DNA of 48,862 nucleotides from Thermostichus vulcanus str. 'Rupite' (GTDB lineage Bacteria; Cyanobacteriota; Cyanobacteriia; Thermostichales; Thermostichaceae): NCBI RefSeq assembly GCF_022848905.1, contig NZ_JAFIRA010000028.1, positions 1-48,862 on the forward strand, given 5' to 3'. Below are positions 40,624-48,862 of this stretch, in pieces. The stretch's first letter is position 1; each line of letters starts with the position of its first letter. A model generated the notes under the pieces. It searched no databases. It had not been told where the DNA came from and was given only the letters and a program-made list of their open reading frames with translations. The translations under genes were made by a program, and so were the position numbers.

Positions 40624-41760
40624 TCACCGCAAAAAGCGGGCCAACAGCAGCATACCGATGCCTCCAAACAGAATATTAAAGCTCCAGGCCGCCGCCCAAG
40701 GAGGCAATGCCCCGGCTTCCCCCAAACTGCGGGACACACTCAAAATCACGTAGTAGCCAAACACCAACAAAATGCCAAAAACTACGCCACCATAGCGGCC
40801 TACCCGGCGGGCTGTACTGGATCCCAGGGGCAGAGAAATCAACACCGCAAAAAAGCTGGCCAAGGGCAAGGAAAAGCGCAGATGAAACTCCGTGCGCAGA
40901 GCCTGGGTATTCAGATTAGAGCGGGCTAGGCGAGCAATCCGTTCTGCCAATTCCGGTAAGCGCAACTCGCTCGGGGGAACCGGTGGTTGCATGAGGGTGG
41001 CCAAATCCTCCGACACTTGCAATGGCTTGCGATCGAAGGGTTGCTCCGCAATGCTGGTGCCAGCAGGGCCATAAATGTGGTGAACTCCTTCAATCAAGCT
41101 CCACTCCAGCCCATTCCACACTGCTTGGGCCGCCAGCGTCACTTCCACCAACTGGTATTTTCCCCCCGGCAATGGATTCACTCGCAACACGCTCACATCC
41201 TGCATCGTATTCAGCCGCGGATCCACTTGGCGGATGAAAAACCACAGGTTGTCTTCTGTTTTAAAAAAAACATCGTATTGAACAGGTGTAGTGGCCTGGG
41301 TGAGCAAAGCCTGCTGATCAATCTCGCGGATCTGTTGTTTGCTGGCCGGAAGTAACACGTTACTGATACCAAAGGCGCTCAGGCTCATGGTCAAGCCCAC
41401 CAATAACAGGGGCCTGAAAATCCGCGTAAACGGGATCCCGGCTGCCCGCAAAGCGGTGATCTCGCTATTGCCGCTCAGTTTGCCCAACGTGAGCATGGTG
41501 GCAAAAAAAGCGGCGATTGGCATGCCCAGCACCACCATCTCCGGCATATCCAGAACCAGAAGGCGCAACACCATCAACGGCGGGACGGATCCCTCTACCA
41601 ATCGTTCGGCCAAGGTAAACAGTCGGCCCACCAGCAGCAGCAGGGTGCCCCCCGCCACACCAGCCAGCACTGGGGTGAGCATCTGCCCAAACAGATAGCG
41701 CTCCAACAGCCAGAACTTGGTTAGCAAAGGGGCAATCCTCCAACTGCACCGGCCACCCAC
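40624..41760 (-). CDS. LptF/LptG family LPS export permease (copy 2)
   Basis: A 378-residue inner-membrane permease paralogous to the one at 3776-4957. It shares GVAGGTLLLLVGRLFTLAERLVEGSVPP, the signature LGKLSGNSEITALRAAGIPF, the periplasmic middle and three C-terminal helices (about 285-378) with PLASFFAVLISLPLG. Two unlike copies suggest an LptF-LptG heterodimer, encoded at two loci. The GTG start at 41760 comes one base after the stop of the upstream pentapeptide gene (TAGAGTG), indicating translational coupling. A 15-base tandem repeat (TGTTCATTCTTCATT, two copies) reaches its stop codon. Confidence 0.92.
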   Translation of the reverse strand: MGGRCSWRIAPLLTKFWLLERYLFGQMLTPVLAGVAGGTLLLLVGRLFTLAERLVEGSVPPLMVLRLLVLDMPEMVVLGMPIAAFFATMLTLGKLSGNSEITALRAAGIPFTRIFRPLLLVGLTMSLSAFGISNVLLPASKQQIREIDQQALLTQATTPVQYDVFFKTEDNLWFFIRQVDPRLNTMQDVSVLRVNPLPGGKYQLVEVTLAAQAVWNGLEWSLIEGVHHIYGPAGTSIAEQPFDRKPLQVSEDLATLMQPPVPPSELRLPELAERIARLARSNLNTQALRTEFHLRFSLPLASFFAVLISLPLGSSTARRVGRYGGVVFGILLVFGYYVILSVSRSLGEAGALPPWAAAWSFNILFGGIGMLLLARFLR

Positions 41761-41761
41761 T

Positions 41762-42955
41762 CTAGCCTATGGGGCCTGGCGGTTCTGAGGCACTGGGGTT
41801 AGGATCCGGATTCTTGTGCAGCACCTGCAGAGGCAGTTCTGGACTAAGTTGGGCTCCCCAAGTGGCTAGGTAGGCCCGTTGTTCTGGGGAAAGACGACGC
41901 ACCTGACGAAAATCGGCCCCTGCCACGACCGCTCCGGCATAGGCTCCGCTTTTGAAGTCTGGCTTTTGTCCCGGTTGAGCAGGAGAAGCGGTTTCCAAAG
42001 ATCCGACAAACAACAAAGCCCGATACAAATCCGCTCCCCGCAAATCCGCATGGCGTAGGTTAGCCCCACACAAGTTGGCATGGCTGAGGTCACAGTCCCG
42101 CAGGTCGGCCCCCTCTAGGCTGGCTTCACTCAGGTCAATGGCCCGCAGTTGGGTTCCGTGCAAATCGGCCCCCTCCAACATCGTTTCCAGATTCACGACG
42201 CGGATCCCGTGCAGGCGATCCCGTTGGTAGCCCCCCTTGCCATCCAAAATCGGGCGACCCAAGTGATCATCGCGCCGTAGGGGGCTGAGCAAATTGGCTG
42301 TAGACAGAAAGCGCAGGATCTTGGCTTTGCCAAAGCGATCCACCCCATTCAACAGCGCGGCGGTGCGTCCAGCGGCAATGGCGCGTTCTAAGGGCCAATC
42401 GTCCAGTTGTCCATCCGGGGCCAAGACCAAACCGGAGATCCCCTCAAAGTAAGCATCGATGGTTTGCTGTTGGGTGATCACATTCTGCTGAATCGTCAGA
42501 TCCCGCGAGATGATGTACTGCCTCCAGGCAATGTAGGCGGCCAAAATGGCGATCAAGATTTGCCCTGCCGCCCCAAACACCTCCCCCAACGCTCCAATCG
42601 CCTCCCAACTCAGGGATCCCACTCCGGAGAAGACTCCACTCAGGCTCATCCCCCCGATCAAGGCTAAGCTCAGGGCCAAAACCATCCACAGAGAACCCGG
42701 CCAGGTACGCACCTGATGCCAAAGGCCGCGCCCAACCCTGATCCAAAACGGTCGTCCCCACCACCCGGCCAGACCCAGTAGCAGCAGCACCGCGACCCAA
42801 CCCATTCCCTGCTGATCCCACAGCAAGGCCAGCACCAATAGCCCAGTCGGGATCCCCAACAACAATAGGTTCAAGAGCGTCCCCAACCCAGAACCGGCCA
42901 CTGGAGAGACAGAGTCGAAAGCAAGAAACTCGGGGGCAAAGGGTTTGGCGGTCAT
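41762..42955 (-). CDS. Membrane-anchored pentapeptide-repeat protein
   Basis: A 397-residue protein. The N-terminal 145 residues hold three to four hydrophobic helices (LLNLLLLGIPTGLLVLALLW; WVAVLLLLGLAGWW; SLWMVLALSLALIGG; AAGQILIAILAAYIAW). A helical stretch follows (QYIISRDLTIQQNVITQQQT), then about 15 pentapeptides at 245-330 (ATLEGADLRDCDL-like units). The layout resembles cyanobacterial membrane pentapeptide proteins with cytoplasmic repeats. The ATG at 42955 avoids overlap with the divergent gene; a frame extending to 43135 exists but is less likely. Its stop is one base before the GTG of the LptF/G permease, so the two are probably made together. The role of the pair is an open question. 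Confidence 0.8.
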   Translation of the reverse strand: MTAKPFAPEFLAFDSVSPVAGSGLGTLLNLLLLGIPTGLLVLALLWDQQGMGWVAVLLLLGLAGWWGRPFWIRVGRGLWHQVRTWPGSLWMVLALSLALIGGMSLSGVFSGVGSLSWEAIGALGEVFGAAGQILIAILAAYIAWRQYIISRDLTIQQNVITQQQTIDAYFEGISGLVLAPDGQLDDWPLERAIAAGRTAALLNGVDRFGKAKILRFLSTANLLSPLRRDDHLGRPILDGKGGYQRDRLHGIRVVNLETMLEGADLHGTQLRAIDLSEASLEGADLRDCDLSHANLCGANLRHADLRGADLYRALLFVGSLETASPAQPGQKPDFKSGAYAGAVVAGADFRQVRRLSPEQRAYLATWGAQLSPELPLQVLHKNPDPNPSASEPPGPIG

Positions 42956-43137
42956 GGGATCTTTACTGTTGTTTGGATTGGCGGCAGGAAACTCTAGGGC
43001 TAGTGTTGAGGTTGGGGAAAAAGCCTGCGTTTCTCCGTATCTGGGGCTGAGTGCCAGGGCAGGATCCCGTCCCCCAGGTTTGTTAGGATAACTTCGACCT
43101 TCCTTCTCTAGCCCAACCCGGTGTGAGGGTGACAACT

Positions 43138-44937
43138 ATGATGATCTCTTTATTGTCTGTCCGGTTGATGGCTGGCAAGTCCAGCTTACGTGTTCAGCGT
43201 CTCACCTCTTCATTGCTCCTCAGCACCACCTTACTGCTGGCAGCAGGCTTTGATCCTGGCTGGGCACAAACCTCTTTGGATACAGGCATTTCTGGCGATC
43301 AAACCCTACCCAGTGCTCCGCCGTTACCCGACAACCGCCCCGCCATTTTTGTGGACGCGGCCAATGGCAGCGATACCCGTGGTGATGGATCCCGTAACAA
43401 CCCCTTCCAAACCATTACCCATGCGACTCAGCGAGCCCCTGCCGGTAGTGTCATTCAGCTTTTCCCAGGGATTTATAGCGAGCAGAGCGGTGAGATTTTC
43501 CCGATTCGTCTCAAGGCTGGCCTCACCCTGCGGGGCGACGAATCCACCTTGGGGGAAGGCTACCTGATCACGGGAGGCGGCACCTACATCAGCCCGACCG
43601 TGGCCCGACAAAACGTCACCATGCTGGCGGAAACGGGGGCAGAAGTACGGGGCGTCACGATGCGCAATGAAGGGCGGCGGGGCTATGCCCTTTGGATTGA
43701 ATCGGCTTCGCCGCGTGTGCTCAACAACAGCTTTGTCGGCAGCATCCACGATGGTATTTTCATCACCGGCGCTTCCAATCCTTGGGTGGAAGGGAATCGC
43801 TTCTACCAAAATGGGGCCAATGGCATTTCCGTCTTGGGTACCTCTCAGCCCACCATCGTCAATAACCTATTTCAAGAAACCGGCTTCGGCCTTACCCTCG
43901 ATCAGCGCTCTACCCCGATTGTGCGCAACAACCGCATTCTGCAAAATCGCACCGGTGTGATCGTCGGGGGCAGCGCCCGGCCCATTCTGCGCAACAACTT
44001 GATCGCCCAGAACCTGGAAACCGGCCTCACCGCCATCACCACAGCTCTACCGGATTTGGGTACGGCTGTGGATCCCGGCAACAACATCTTTGAAGGCAAC
44101 GGCCAATACGACATCAACAACTCCACTCGCGGCCTGCGCATCAATGCCAACGGCAACCAGTTGCGAGGCCAAACCAAAGGGGATCTGGATCTGGCGGGCC
44201 AAACCACCGTTGCGGCTGCCCCCACCGCCGCTCCCAACCCGATTTCCCCTGGCGCGCTTTCCTTGCCCAGCACCCCCACTTTACCGGCGGCGTCTGCGCC
44301 TGCGGCGACTACCCCTACGGAAGCAACGCCCACCTTGCCGACCCTGACCGTGCCAGAGACCACCTCCCCCACTGCTATTCCCCCCACGGATGGAGCGCAA
44401 GGTACCCTAGCCCAGGGATCCGGAGGGCGCATTTTACCCCCTGCCGGTGAGGCAGAAGCCGCAACCGCAGCCCCCGTAACGGCCAGTGAAACTGCTCCAC
44501 AGCCCCAAGCCCAAGAGTTTACGGCTGTTCCCTTTACTCCGGATGGATCCACCACCCCTGCTCTACCGGTAGCCCAGTCTCCTGCGGCCAGCAGTAATCC
44601 TAGCTCGCCCCCTCTGACAGATATCACCACCCTGTTGCCTCCTCCCGCACAGCGCCAATCTCAAGCTGCTCCAGTAGCTCCAGCACCTGCAGCTCCTCCA
44701 GCACCTGCGGTGGCTGCTGCCGATTCCGCCACTCGGTTCCGCGTCCTGGTCACCCCCAGAAGCAGCGAGGATCTGAGCCGCTTGCAGCAACTTATCCCTG
44801 GGGCTGTGGAAACGGTTTTTAACGGCAGAAATGTGCTCCAGGCTGGTCTTTATGACAGCCGCAGCCAAGCCCAGTCGGTGTTGGATCAGCTGTTGGATGC
44901 GGGCTTTGAGGCCGTTGCCGAGATGATCTTCCGCTAA
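43138..44937 (+). CDS. Secreted DUF1565/beta-helix protein with C-terminal SPOR-like domain
   Basis: A 599-residue exported protein. A signal peptide (LTSSLLLSTTLLLAAGFDPGWAQ) precedes a DUF1565 domain (DAANGSDTRGDGSRNNPFQTITHA, PGIYSEQSGEIFPIRL). A right-handed parallel beta-helix follows to about residue 345, with NNSFVGS, GNRFYQNGANGISV and NNRILQNRTGVIV rungs. A Pro/Ala/Thr-rich linker (about 355-510) leads to a final 75 residues resembling SPOR (FRVLVTPRSSEDLSRLQQLI, then FNGRNVLQAGLYDSRSQAQS). SPOR domains bind bare peptidoglycan glycan strands, so this may tether the beta-helix at the wall. GAGGGTG precedes the ATG at 43138; a GTG at 43123 is an alternative. Confidence 0.82.
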   Translation: MMISLLSVRLMAGKSSLRVQRLTSSLLLSTTLLLAAGFDPGWAQTSLDTGISGDQTLPSAPPLPDNRPAIFVDAANGSDTRGDGSRNNPFQTITHATQRAPAGSVIQLFPGIYSEQSGEIFPIRLKAGLTLRGDESTLGEGYLITGGGTYISPTVARQNVTMLAETGAEVRGVTMRNEGRRGYALWIESASPRVLNNSFVGSIHDGIFITGASNPWVEGNRFYQNGANGISVLGTSQPTIVNNLFQETGFGLTLDQRSTPIVRNNRILQNRTGVIVGGSARPILRNNLIAQNLETGLTAITTALPDLGTAVDPGNNIFEGNGQYDINNSTRGLRINANGNQLRGQTKGDLDLAGQTTVAAAPTAAPNPISPGALSLPSTPTLPAASAPAATTPTEATPTLPTLTVPETTSPTAIPPTDGAQGTLAQGSGGRILPPAGEAEAATAAPVTASETAPQPQAQEFTAVPFTPDGSTTPALPVAQSPAASSNPSSPPLTDITTLLPPPAQRQSQAAPVAPAPAAPPAPAVAAADSATRFRVLVTPRSSEDLSRLQQLIPGAVETVFNGRNVLQAGLYDSRSQAQSVLDQLLDAGFEAVAEMIFR

Positions 44938-45018
44938 TCTCCGCTCATCTTTTCCTGCACTGCGACCCAAACGGGATCCAAGCCAAAATAGGGGTAATTC
45001 GCCACGGAAGGGATCCCT

Positions 45019-47007
45019 TTGGAACCTCATTGCCGTTTGATACCCACCACTCACCAGCTTGTCTTGTTCAGTGGCAAGGGAGGGGTGGGTAAAACGACCC
45101 TCACCTGTGCCTTGGCCCGCCAACTGGCCCAAGCGGATCCCCAGCGTCGCTTGCTTTTGATTTCTACCGATCCGGCCCACTCACTGGGGGATGTGTTGGA
45201 TCTGCCGGTTACGGATCGGGCTCAGCCTTTGCCCGACTGCCCCAATTTGCAGGTGCGCGCTCTACAGGCTGAGGTGTTGCTGGCGGCCTTTAAGCAAACC
45301 TACGGGGCAGCGCTGGAACTAATTGCCGAGCGCGGCAGTTGGTTTGGTCGGGAGGATCTGCTGCCAGTTTGGGATTTGGCCTGGCCGGGGGTGGATGAAT
45401 TGATGGCAATTTTGGAGGTAAATCGGTTGCTGGCGGGCGGAGCCATCGATACGGTTATTCTGGATACTGCTCCCACCGGGCATACCTTGCGCCTGCTGGA
45501 GTTACCGGACTTTTTGGATAATGTGCTGGCGGTTTTTGCTACCTTTCAGGCCAAGCATCGAGAGCTCTCCCAAGCTCTGACGGGCACCTACCGAGCGGAT
45601 GAAGCGGATGCCTTTTTGGCCCAACTGCAAGGGGAACTGCAAGCGGGAAAAGCGCGACTGACGGATCCCGACAGTTCTTCGGTCTGGTTGGTGATGCTAC
45701 CGGAGCATTTAAGTCTGGAGGAAACCCGGCGTTTTTGTCAGCAATTGCAGCATCGCCGCTTGCCCATCGGCGGCATCCTTGTCAATCAGGTTTTACTGGG
45801 ATCCCTGCAGCCCTCCCCCCTTTACTTGGCTCGCCAGCAGGAACAATATCGTCTGCTCAAGGCCCTAACAGAAGGCTTGCCTGGCTATCGGATTTGGATT
45901 GCGCCTTATCAACTGCAGGAGCCGATTGGAGCAACTGCCCTGGATCGTTTGGTCACCCAGTTATTGCCCCTGCAGGATTTGCCTGAAGTCAACTTAGTTC
46001 CAGCTGGTTCTCCAGGGATCCCTGTCGAACTAGGCACCGAGGTGCGCATCCCGGATCTCCTCAACCATGGGATCCGACTGGCCCTCACAGGGGGTAAGGG
46101 GGGGGTGGGCAAAACAACGGTGGCTGGGGCATTGGCCTGGAACCTAGCGAAGCGACATCCGGATAAGCAGCTGTTGCTGGTGTCCATTGATCCGGCCCAT
46201 TCGCTGGGAGATTTGTTCGAGGTGAAGTTGGGGCAGGATCCTGTCCCTCTGCTGCCAAACCTGATGGGGCAGGAGATCGATGCCGCAGTGGTGCTGGAGC
46301 AATTCCGGCAGGACTATTTGGAGGACATTGTCGCCATTTTGGCCGGAGAATCCACCCCCGGCGTGGAGGTGCAATACGACCCCCAAGCCTGGCGGCAACT
46401 GCTGCAAATGCCTCCACCCGGCTTGGATGAGGTGATGGCCCTGTTGACGGTCTTGAAACAAGGCTCAGCCGGTCAATTTGATTTGGTGGTGCTGGATACG
46501 GCCCCTACCGGTCATCTGCTGCGGTTTCTGCAGATGCCCCAAGCTTTGGAAGGATGGGTGAGCCTAGCCCTGAAACTGTGGTTGAAGTATCGGGATGTGG
46601 TGGGCAGAGCGGAATTGGCTCAGCGCTTGCGGGGGTTACTGGCTCAGGTGCGGCAACTGCGGCAACAACTTCAGGATCCCCAATTTGTTACTTTTATTCC
46701 GGTTTTTAACCCAGAACAGGCGGTACTGGCGGAAACGCAGCGATTGCTCACCGAACTGGATGGACTGGGGATCCCACATCCCTATGCCGTGTTAAACCGG
46801 ATTTGGGTGGATCGTTCCGATGCCTTCGGACAAGCCGTGGCCGAAAGGCACCAAGCGCTTTTGGCCCAGCTCCCTGAACACCTAGCTCAGCAACTGCTGG
46901 TACGGATCCCGTTTCTGCATCCCCCCAGCCTGGAATCGATAGGCGCCTATCTTCTAGAGGCAGCAGGGACAAACACCCCTTACCCCTGCGGTAAGGATCT
47001 CGGATGA
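45019..47007 (+). CDS. Tandem ArsA/Get3-type ATPase
   Basis: A 662-residue protein with two complete deviant-Walker ATPase halves: P-loops SGKGGVGKTT (near residue 20) and TGGKGGVGKTT (near 358), switch regions STDPAHSLGD and SIDPAHSLGD, and the family signature LDTAPTGHTLRLLELP and LDTAPTGHLLRFLQMP. ArsA of plasmid R773 has the same two-half layout and drives arsenite export, but this protein lacks matching metal-site cysteines in the second half. The only cysteines are near the N-terminus, in PDCPN, RRFCQQ and at the extreme C-terminus. No arsR, arsB or arsC gene is nearby. A Get3-like chaperone role or another transport role is therefore as likely. The start is a TTG at 45019, uncertain. 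Confidence 0.85.
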   Translation: MEPHCRLIPTTHQLVLFSGKGGVGKTTLTCALARQLAQADPQRRLLLISTDPAHSLGDVLDLPVTDRAQPLPDCPNLQVRALQAEVLLAAFKQTYGAALELIAERGSWFGREDLLPVWDLAWPGVDELMAILEVNRLLAGGAIDTVILDTAPTGHTLRLLELPDFLDNVLAVFATFQAKHRELSQALTGTYRADEADAFLAQLQGELQAGKARLTDPDSSSVWLVMLPEHLSLEETRRFCQQLQHRRLPIGGILVNQVLLGSLQPSPLYLARQQEQYRLLKALTEGLPGYRIWIAPYQLQEPIGATALDRLVTQLLPLQDLPEVNLVPAGSPGIPVELGTEVRIPDLLNHGIRLALTGGKGGVGKTTVAGALAWNLAKRHPDKQLLLVSIDPAHSLGDLFEVKLGQDPVPLLPNLMGQEIDAAVVLEQFRQDYLEDIVAILAGESTPGVEVQYDPQAWRQLLQMPPPGLDEVMALLTVLKQGSAGQFDLVVLDTAPTGHLLRFLQMPQALEGWVSLALKLWLKYRDVVGRAELAQRLRGLLAQVRQLRQQLQDPQFVTFIPVFNPEQAVLAETQRLLTELDGLGIPHPYAVLNRIWVDRSDAFGQAVAERHQALLAQLPEHLAQQLLVRIPFLHPPSLESIGAYLLEAAGTNTPYPCGKDLG

Positions 47008-47097
47008 GCGTTCCGTAGCCCTTCTCCCACAAGGCGTGAGTCCAACCCCATCCGCGTTGTCAACCCCTTTCTGCTGTTTCCCACATCCCTTTTGCCC

Positions 47098-47193
47098 ATG
47101 GCCCTACTCACCCTCAATTCCGTTCGCAAAGATTTTGGCGTCAAGGAGATCCTCAAGAGCGCCAGTTCCAGAACCCAATGTTCCCCATTTTGA
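47098..47193 (+). pseudogene. N-terminal stub of an ABC-F ATPase
   Basis: An ATG at 47098 opens a 31-codon frame beginning MALLTLNSVRKDFGVKEILK, which looks like the first two strands of an ABC-F/Uup-type ATPase. After KSAS the match stops (about 47170) and the frame ends at TGA 47193. The Walker A that would follow is absent. The next gene's ATG at 47178 lies inside it in another frame, so a deletion or insertion has joined an ABC-F gene start to the C45-type gene. Confidence 0.6.
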
Positions 47194-48398
47194 ATGTGTA
47201 CGGAGATCCCCAGCAACGGGGTTACCAATACGGAGCCCAGGCGGCCCTGCAAATCCGCCACAGCATCGCCAGTTATGCCCGCCAGTTCGCTTACCGTTGT
47301 GGACTCACCTGGCACCAGTCCCAAACTTTAGCCGAGGGATCCCTGCCTTGGCTAGAACGCCACACTCCCCAGCTGCTGGAGGAGATCCAAGGCATTGCCA
47401 CTGGCAGTGGTTTCACCTTCTCCGAGATTCTGGCCCTTAACCTACGTACTGAGATCTTAGCCCGAGCCGTATCTGGGGGATCCCATCCCCATTACGCTGC
47501 TGCAGTGGAACACAATCGTCAGGCCGGAGTGCCTCAGCACCCCCCGGATCCCGTCCCGGAATTCAAGGAGATCGATGAGATTGATGAGAGCAATTCCTCT
47601 CAAGCCCACCCAGATTGGGGAGAATGTACCACCCTGGCCGCCCTGCCCCAGGTCACCGCTACCCAGCACACCTACCTGGCCCAAACCTGGGATTGGGTCG
47701 GGGCTCAACGGTCAGCTTGCTTGGTTTTGCGGATTCATGCCCCAGATCATCCACCCTGTTTGACCTTGACCGAAGCCGGGATCCTCGCCAAAATCGGCCT
47801 CAACCAAGCGGGGCTGGCGGTAACCCTCAACCTGTTGCGCTCCCAGCAGGATGGCCAAACCCAGTCTGGGGGAATGCCCGTCCACTTGTTGTTGCGGCTG
47901 CTGTTACAGTGTGAGACTTGGCAGCAGGCACTGGAAAGGGTGAAATCCTACCCCTATACCGCTTCTTCTTGTGTCAGTTTGGCCAGTGCCAGCGGACAGT
48001 TGATCAGCTTTGAACTCAGCCCCCAGGGAATCGGTTTGCATCACCCTCAAAGGGGCCTCCTGGTGCATACCAACCACTTTCTCGATCCCACCCTGCAAGT
48101 GCATGAGCTACCCCCCTACGTGGGATCCTCCACAAGACAACGGCTGGAACGGGCCAGTTATCTCCTGCATCAGAGCGCCCAAAGGGGATCCCTCAACGCA
48201 GTTGCCTTACAAGAGATTTTGCGGGATCGGACGAATGCTCCCCGCTGCATTTGTCGCCATCCGGATCCCCATCTACCTGCTGTAGATCGCACCGAAACTG
48301 TGGCGGCTGTGGTGATGGATCTGAATCAGCAGATTTTGCACCTAGCTCCCGGCCTTCCCGATCAAGTGGAGTTTGTGCCAATCCCCATCCAACCCTGA
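47178..48398 (+). CDS. Peptidase C45-like Ntn hydrolase (acyl-CoA:6-APA acyltransferase family)
   Basis: A 406-residue N-terminal-nucleophile hydrolase of the C45/AAT family. The pro-region has the family start (GDPQQRGYQYGAQAALQI) and GFTFSEILALNLRTEI. An acidic low-conservation insert (about 108-145) precedes the likely nucleophile Cys near residue 150 in WGECTTLAAL, followed by YLAQTWDWV. Later landmarks are AGILAKIGLNQAGLAVTLN and GLLVHTNHFLDP. Cleavage before that Cys would expose the catalytic amine. Substrates of bacterial members are mostly unknown; amide hydrolysis or acyl transfer is likely. The start sits inside the ABC-F stub with no clear ribosome site, so its native promoter may be lost or borrowed. 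Confidence 0.82.
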   Translation: MFPILNVYGDPQQRGYQYGAQAALQIRHSIASYARQFAYRCGLTWHQSQTLAEGSLPWLERHTPQLLEEIQGIATGSGFTFSEILALNLRTEILARAVSGGSHPHYAAAVEHNRQAGVPQHPPDPVPEFKEIDEIDESNSSQAHPDWGECTTLAALPQVTATQHTYLAQTWDWVGAQRSACLVLRIHAPDHPPCLTLTEAGILAKIGLNQAGLAVTLNLLRSQQDGQTQSGGMPVHLLLRLLLQCETWQQALERVKSYPYTASSCVSLASASGQLISFELSPQGIGLHHPQRGLLVHTNHFLDPTLQVHELPPYVGSSTRQRLERASYLLHQSAQRGSLNAVALQEILRDRTNAPRCICRHPDPHLPAVDRTETVAAVVMDLNQQILHLAPGLPDQVEFVPIPIQP

Positions 48399-48736
48399 AG
48401 TTGCAAGCTACATGGCTAAAGACAAGACAATACACAGATATATACACTTATATTATATATACTACACATATATGCACTTGAATATATGATGCACTTGAAT
48501 ATATGCACTTAAGCGTTAACTCTTTCGCGAGTCTTGCAGCGGCTCAAAACCATGAATCTAACTCAGCTAGCGGGAGATCTCATATCACAGGGCTACGCGA
48601 TCTTGATGTGACTACAATACTCATGGCTGTCACCTCACCACACTTAGTCAAAGCAGGTTTGCTGCTTTCTCGAACATTTTTATCAAAGATCCAGAATTGG
48701 CTTTATATGAGTAACTTGTATAACTTATATGAATAT
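48399..48736. other. AT-rich gene-free region with short direct repeats
   Basis: The first 110 bases are an unusually AT-rich tract (ATATATAC, TTATATTATATATAC) followed by three direct copies of TGCACTT(G/A)A, starting at 48473, 48490 and 48504. A plus frame at 48553 begins MNLTQLAGDLISQGYAI and stops after about 20 codons, and a neighbouring frame continues to 48739, so a broken gene is possible. No tRNA or intact gene is seen. Confidence 0.4.
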
Positions 48737-48862
48737 TGACACTCCCCCGGTTAGAAACCGGGGGATTCTCCCTTCTAGCTCCCCACAGCTTGAAGCTGTG
48801 AGGGATTCATGGAGTTCAGGGGATTGCCAAATACCCCATCCCCTGAGCCGACCCTACCTATT
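48737..48862 (-). mobile_element. Probable IS200/IS605 right end with two hairpins, cut by the window edge
   Basis: A hairpin of CCCCCGGTT and AACCGGGGG lies at 48744-48764, next to TTGACACT, and a second of CACAGCTT and AAGCTGTG at about 48785-48801. The reverse complement reads as the typical cyanobacterial IS200/IS605 tnpB 3' end (hairpins, then GGGGGAGTGTCAA). A minus-strand frame open from the window edge stops at TAG 48775-48777 and could be the C-terminus of the element's protein. The body of the element would lie to the right. Confidence 0.45.

Follow-up and report, generated by a model that had tools for sequence, protein, structure and literature searches.

Among the systems closest to the locus described here, the Uup- and EttA-type ABC-F ATPases have been studied by gene deletion in Escherichia coli: the excerpt of one study (PMC6723617) reports that deletion of uup, or of uup together with ettA, caused neither cold sensitivity nor a change in polysomes. 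As for mobile elements, the excerpt of a second study (PMC2246112) describes recently active insertion sequences (ISs) in only two hot-spring strains among the Synechococcus then sequenced. Our literature search found nothing on a junction between an ABC-F gene and a hydrolase gene, and nothing on Thermostichus genomes in connection with ISs. The sequence analyzed here, which we call the window, is the whole of contig C28 (48,862 nt) of Thermostichus vulcanus str. 'Rupite' (G000), a draft assembly of 3.72 Mb in 120 contigs with a reported completeness of 99.99%. We take the two hot-spring strains to be members of the same genus. The Rupite genome is IS-rich and strongly rearranged relative to its sisters.

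In the window, the first codons of an ABC-F gene stand directly before a complete gene for a C45-family hydrolase (Table 1). This junction, known from one draft assembly of one strain, is very probably the scar of a chromosomal rearrangement in which the ABC-F gene was lost past codon 23–24 and the hydrolase gene was joined behind the remnant, since the sequence matches the ArsA-like/ABC-F locus of the sister genome G003 up to 47171 and separately matches the hydrolase loci of G003, G004 and G005.

Table 1. Features at and around the junction (window positions).
Feature	Position	Strand	Basis or remark
ArsA-like double ATPase gene, probable ancestral upstream neighbor of ABC-F	45019..47007	+	PF02374, E 4.9e-112
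Leader of the lost ABC-F gene	47008..47097	+	DNA match to G003 throughout, to G002 from 47049
31-codon remnant ORF	47098..47193	+	23–24 ABC-F codons, then 7 unrelated codons running into the hydrolase start
Breakpoint interval	47167..47177	.	Match to ABC-F up to 47171, to the hydrolase gene from 47178
C45-family autoproteolytic acyltransferase/hydrolase (putative), 406 aa, complete	47178..48398	+	NF040521, PF03417; start shared with the orthologues of G003, G004 and G005
End of IS200/IS605-type element, 3' part of tnpB	48736..48862	-	Contig end

The two halves of the junction

A 31-codon frame with an ABC-F N-terminus had been recognized in the first-pass annotation, and the frame is present (codons at 47098–47190, stop TGA at 47191–47193). 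When its peptide was compared with eight other genomes (G001–G008), six gave matches at E ≤ 1.5e-4, over residues 1–24, and no match was found in G001 or G004. Over these residues, the remnant is most similar to the intact ABC-F genes of G003 (22 of 24 identical, 92%, E 8.9e-9) and G002 (88%, E 2.1e-8), followed by those of G005 and G006 (75% each), G007 (71%) and G008 (63%); a second, weak match in G007 (41%, E 0.795) was disregarded. In G002, G003, G005 and G007, the counterpart is a long ABC-F frame opening with the same residues as the remnant, so that the expected intact genes do exist in sister species; that of G006 is shorter (open frame of 268 codons) and that of G008 is more distant. 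A Pfam search gave no match with the 31-residue peptide, which is too short, and the ABC-F identification therefore comes from the orthologue matches. The G003 protein has two ABC domains, a linker (ABC_tran_Xtn) and a Uup-type C-terminal domain; among the NCBIfam models, it falls short of the cut-offs of EttA and of Uup and exceeds only that of the general 'ribosomal protection-like ABC-F' model. The remnant stops ahead of the first Walker A motif, and the two nucleotide-binding domains, the Walker motifs and the linker are all lost. Judged by its sequence, 47098–47171 is a pseudogene remnant that would yield no working ABC-F.

The DNA match to G003 is unbroken over 40628–47171 (86.9%, 6585 columns), spanning the ArsA-like gene, the intergenic leader and the first ABC-F codons, and then ends. 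The ArsA-like protein is 91% identical to that of G003, in which the intact ABC-F gene comes next, and the last 48–49 bases of the leader also stand upstream of ABC-F in G002. Resemblance to the hydrolase genes of G003 and G004 begins exactly at 47178, where the hydrolase ATG lies six bases past the end of the ABC-F match and, as had been proposed, in another frame (offset 80); the two ORFs overlap by 16 nt. If the T-to-C change at 47168 derives from the other side of the join, the ABC-F similarity ends at 47167 instead. Residue 24 is Phe in all six translated relatives and Ser in the remnant, so only the first 23 codons can be assigned safely to ABC-F. The earlier estimate of a 24-residue match with a break near 47170 has to be narrowed to 23 codons and widened to a break at about 47167–47177. 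Over these 23 codons, the remnant differs from G003 by four synonymous changes and one non-synonymous change; in this tiny sample, most of the divergence looks older than the break.

The statement that no repeat marks the break was broadly right. Within 47000–47350 there are short matches only, the best exact one being the 9-nt CGCCAGTTC at 47160–47168 and 47280–47288, and the 601 bases around the junction occur only once in the Rupite genome. At the join itself there is no insertion sequence. A 3-nt overlap (CAG) may be present there. The former upstream sequence of the hydrolase gene is too poorly conserved among the sisters to place its side of the breakpoint. A link between the break and an RNA element found no support: an Rfam search of 44000–48862 gave no match, and the predicted fold of 47050–47230 is unremarkable (z −1.46).

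The hydrolase matches NF040521 at 255.6 bits (cut-off 85) over residues 9–385 and PF03417 at 84.9 bits (cut-off 23.2, E 8.4e-24). Its start and first residues are identical in all four genus copies, and a GECTT motif with Cys150, located behind an N-terminal leader domain, is kept in the four aligned copies. This cysteine is presumably the nucleophile, as in the C45 family. On these features, the product of 47178–48398 is assigned to the C45 autoproteolytic hydrolase family, self-cleavage and acyl activity being putative. The first-pass annotation had called the two genes fused, which is correct for the DNA and not for the protein: the hydrolase has a complete ORF of its own that opens with its conserved Met. 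A fusion protein was accordingly rejected, the frames being different. When contigs of named genomes were scanned for the hydrolase gene, 63 loci were returned, one of them in a genus member (Synechococcus sp. MAG M44_DOE_062); the other 62 belong to distant relatives (24–37% identity) and were left out of further comparison.

Downstream of the hydrolase gene, the 337 bases of 48399–48735 are rich in AT (37% GC, the window as a whole having 56%), contain ATATATG-type repeats and have no second copy in the Rupite genome. The IS605-type element that follows has 39 further copies in the genome (90–100% identity), and a full copy encodes OrfB_IS605 and Cas12f1-like_TNB domains. The contig ends within this repeat, 464 bases past the hydrolase stop.

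Gene order in sister genomes and fate of the old neighbors

In G003, the ArsA-like gene, the ABC-F gene, a TerC gene and genes for an Mla-type ABC ATPase, an Mce-type protein and GlmS follow one another on one strand (the last three names are presumptive and were given by sequence). The hydrolase gene of G003 is located on another contig, more than 1 Mb in, with a rhodanese gene before it and an LptA-like gene behind it, and the rhodanese gene directly precedes the hydrolase gene in G004 and G005 as well. The two halves of the junction are accordingly unlinked in all three sisters holding the hydrolase gene, and comparison of the locus among sisters thus places them at separate loci. Adjacency of the ArsA-like and ABC-F genes was found in G003 and the Rupite genome only, the two being apart in G002 and G005. 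A 601-base query across the join, searched in eight family genomes including that of Rupite, found the whole junction in the Rupite genome and in none of the seven others; four of the seven contain one or both halves, but apart, and three contain neither at E ≤ 0.001.

The old neighbors are all separated in the Rupite genome. A 10-kb stretch of G003 around ABC-F finds its match partly in C28, as far as 47171, and partly in two blocks of contig C1 (169192–174971). These blocks cover a MerR-type regulator and the genes from GlmS to TerC, and fail to reach the ABC-F stop by 160 bp. Directly after the TerC block comes a larB-like (AIR carboxylase) gene, and this second break is internal to C1, a 261-kb contig. 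(C1 also carries a DnaB-like helicase frame, L118 8835–10643, with a candidate mini-intein running from a CLSGETEVLDVDRGK start to a VHNS end as judged by eye.) The corresponding 10-kb stretch around the G003 hydrolase gene splits over four contigs, C55, C46 (rhodanese), C28 (hydrolase) and C7 (LptA). C46 ends 252 bases past the rhodanese gene, inside an ISL3-type element, copies of which elsewhere carry an ISL3-type transposase. The body of the ABC-F gene is absent: apart from three pieces of 35–51 bases at ATPase motifs, no match to it was found in the Rupite genome, and the G002 protein has its only full-length match in a 34% paralogue on C6, its further matches being to the remnant and to parts of unrelated loci for ABC proteins. 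The missing body and the separate halves in sisters both fit the rearrangement that had been suggested for this locus.

These arrangements bear on two other explanations. An assembler could have joined two unlinked loci and left the true ABC-F gene unassembled, an artifact made conceivable by the 120-contig draft, by the presence of the junction in one of eight genomes and by the contig end in a repeat 464 bases after the hydrolase stop; we consider it very unlikely, however, because both flanks of the junction are free of repeats elsewhere in the genome, the ABC-F body is missing rather than displaced, the TerC side shows an independent break within a 261-kb contig, and the reported completeness is 99.99%. 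Even less probable is a simple local deletion that removed the ABC-F body, the ABC-F and hydrolase genes being already adjacent in a recent ancestor. The same orientation and the very short join would suit it, but the hydrolase gene follows the rhodanese gene in G003, G004 and G005, TerC follows ABC-F in G003, and the Rupite TerC gene lies on another contig beside the larB-like gene; it was rejected on this sister synteny.

For the rearrangement itself, we infer that the order in G003, with ArsA-like ATPase, ABC-F, TerC and Mla genes in a row and the hydrolase gene elsewhere between the rhodanese and LptA-like genes, is ancestral. A break within ABC-F codon 23–24 would then have been joined just ahead of the hydrolase start, a few bases from it, the remaining ABC-F sequence and about 160 bp past its stop would have been lost, and the TerC block would have been joined to the larB-like gene. 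The joining would have been illegitimate, with an overlap of at most about 3 nt.

The ABC-F orthologue gave no match in G001 and G004, two of the five sister species, and no remnant was found there, which indicates that its loss is tolerated; the gene was apparently lost repeatedly, or was regained after a loss. Together with its absence from the Rupite genome, this makes the ABC-F gene dispensable in the genus, in agreement with the deletion results in the excerpted E. coli study (PMC6723617).

Divergence and putative expression of the hydrolase gene

Compared with G003, the hydrolase gene has a dN of 0.149 and a dS of 0.90 (ratio about 0.17), which indicates purifying selection, while the ArsA-like gene has a dN of 0.047 and a dS of 0.50. 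Its horizontal acquisition and insertion into ABC-F, to which the raised distances might point, is nonetheless unlikely: the rhodanese gene, its ancestral neighbor, is similarly raised against G003 (dS 0.81) and both genes are far from those of G004 (dS 1.39 and 1.20), so that the pair behaves alike, the GC and GC3 contents of the hydrolase gene (57.7 and 62.3) equal those of its neighbors (57.4 and 61.9 for the ArsA-like gene), and a search of the Rupite genome gave no further copy of the hydrolase gene. Horizontal gain was thus weighed and not favored. The hydrolase dS is 0.90 between Rupite and G003 and 0.91 between G003 and G004, a picture unlike that of the ArsA-like gene (0.50) under which the history of the hydrolase gene may be more complex. 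We read the raised distance as a quirk of the rhodanese/hydrolase pair in the G003 lineage rather than as foreign origin of the Rupite gene, while allowing for the opposite.

For the rhodanese gene (L119 9407–9814) and the hydrolase gene, dS is 0.69–0.94 between G003 and G004 or G005, against 0.81–0.90 between G003 and Rupite, a pattern unlike that of the ArsA-like gene. Exchange between lineages in G003 is possible for this pair.

After the rearrangement, the hydrolase transcript would read through the ArsA-like gene, start in the old ABC-F leader, or both, and expression by such routes is somewhat more probable than its opposite. Use of the lost ABC-F promoter or ribosome entry, as the first-pass annotation suggested, is plausible, and read-through from the upstream ArsA-like gene is an equal candidate; a search of 46850–47300 found no sigma-70-like site, and scans for promoters and terminators found nothing on the plus strand. 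The old ABC-F start precedes the hydrolase ATG by 80 nt, and the remnant frame closes only 13 nt beyond this ATG; with such a spacing, translational coupling would be possible. The remnant might even act as a short upstream frame, with ribosomes entering at the ABC-F start, ending 13 nt past the hydrolase ATG and re-initiating there; we regard this as unlikely, but it would mean that the leader of a translation factor had been co-opted to set the hydrolase level.

Comparison with known systems

At base level, the locus shows cleanly how gene loss and rewiring of upstream context go together in a cyanobacterial genus of the hot-spring type. Such a scar is an ordinary, common kind of genomic event, and the general picture is unchanged by it; it would gain greater weight only if the remnant drives or tunes the hydrolase gene.

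With the Uup/EttA-type ABC-F ATPases, the sister gene shares the full domain set, of which the Rupite genome keeps just the first 23–24 codons. The hydrolase shares with C45 acyltransferases/hydrolases the profile match, the conserved Cys of GECTT and the preceding leader domain. A structure of this family, 2x1c/2x1d, is by its Pfam family an acyl-coenzyme A:6-aminopenicillanic acid acyltransferase. The hydrolase resembles 2x1c in sequence along two stretches, which does not imply a penicillin pathway. With the gene remnants known from breakpoints in IS-rich bacterial genomes, the locus shares a truncated 5' end abutting an unrelated intact gene, dispersal of both loci relative to a sister genome and insertion sequences nearby; there is no essential difference from them, the join itself here being free of an insertion sequence.
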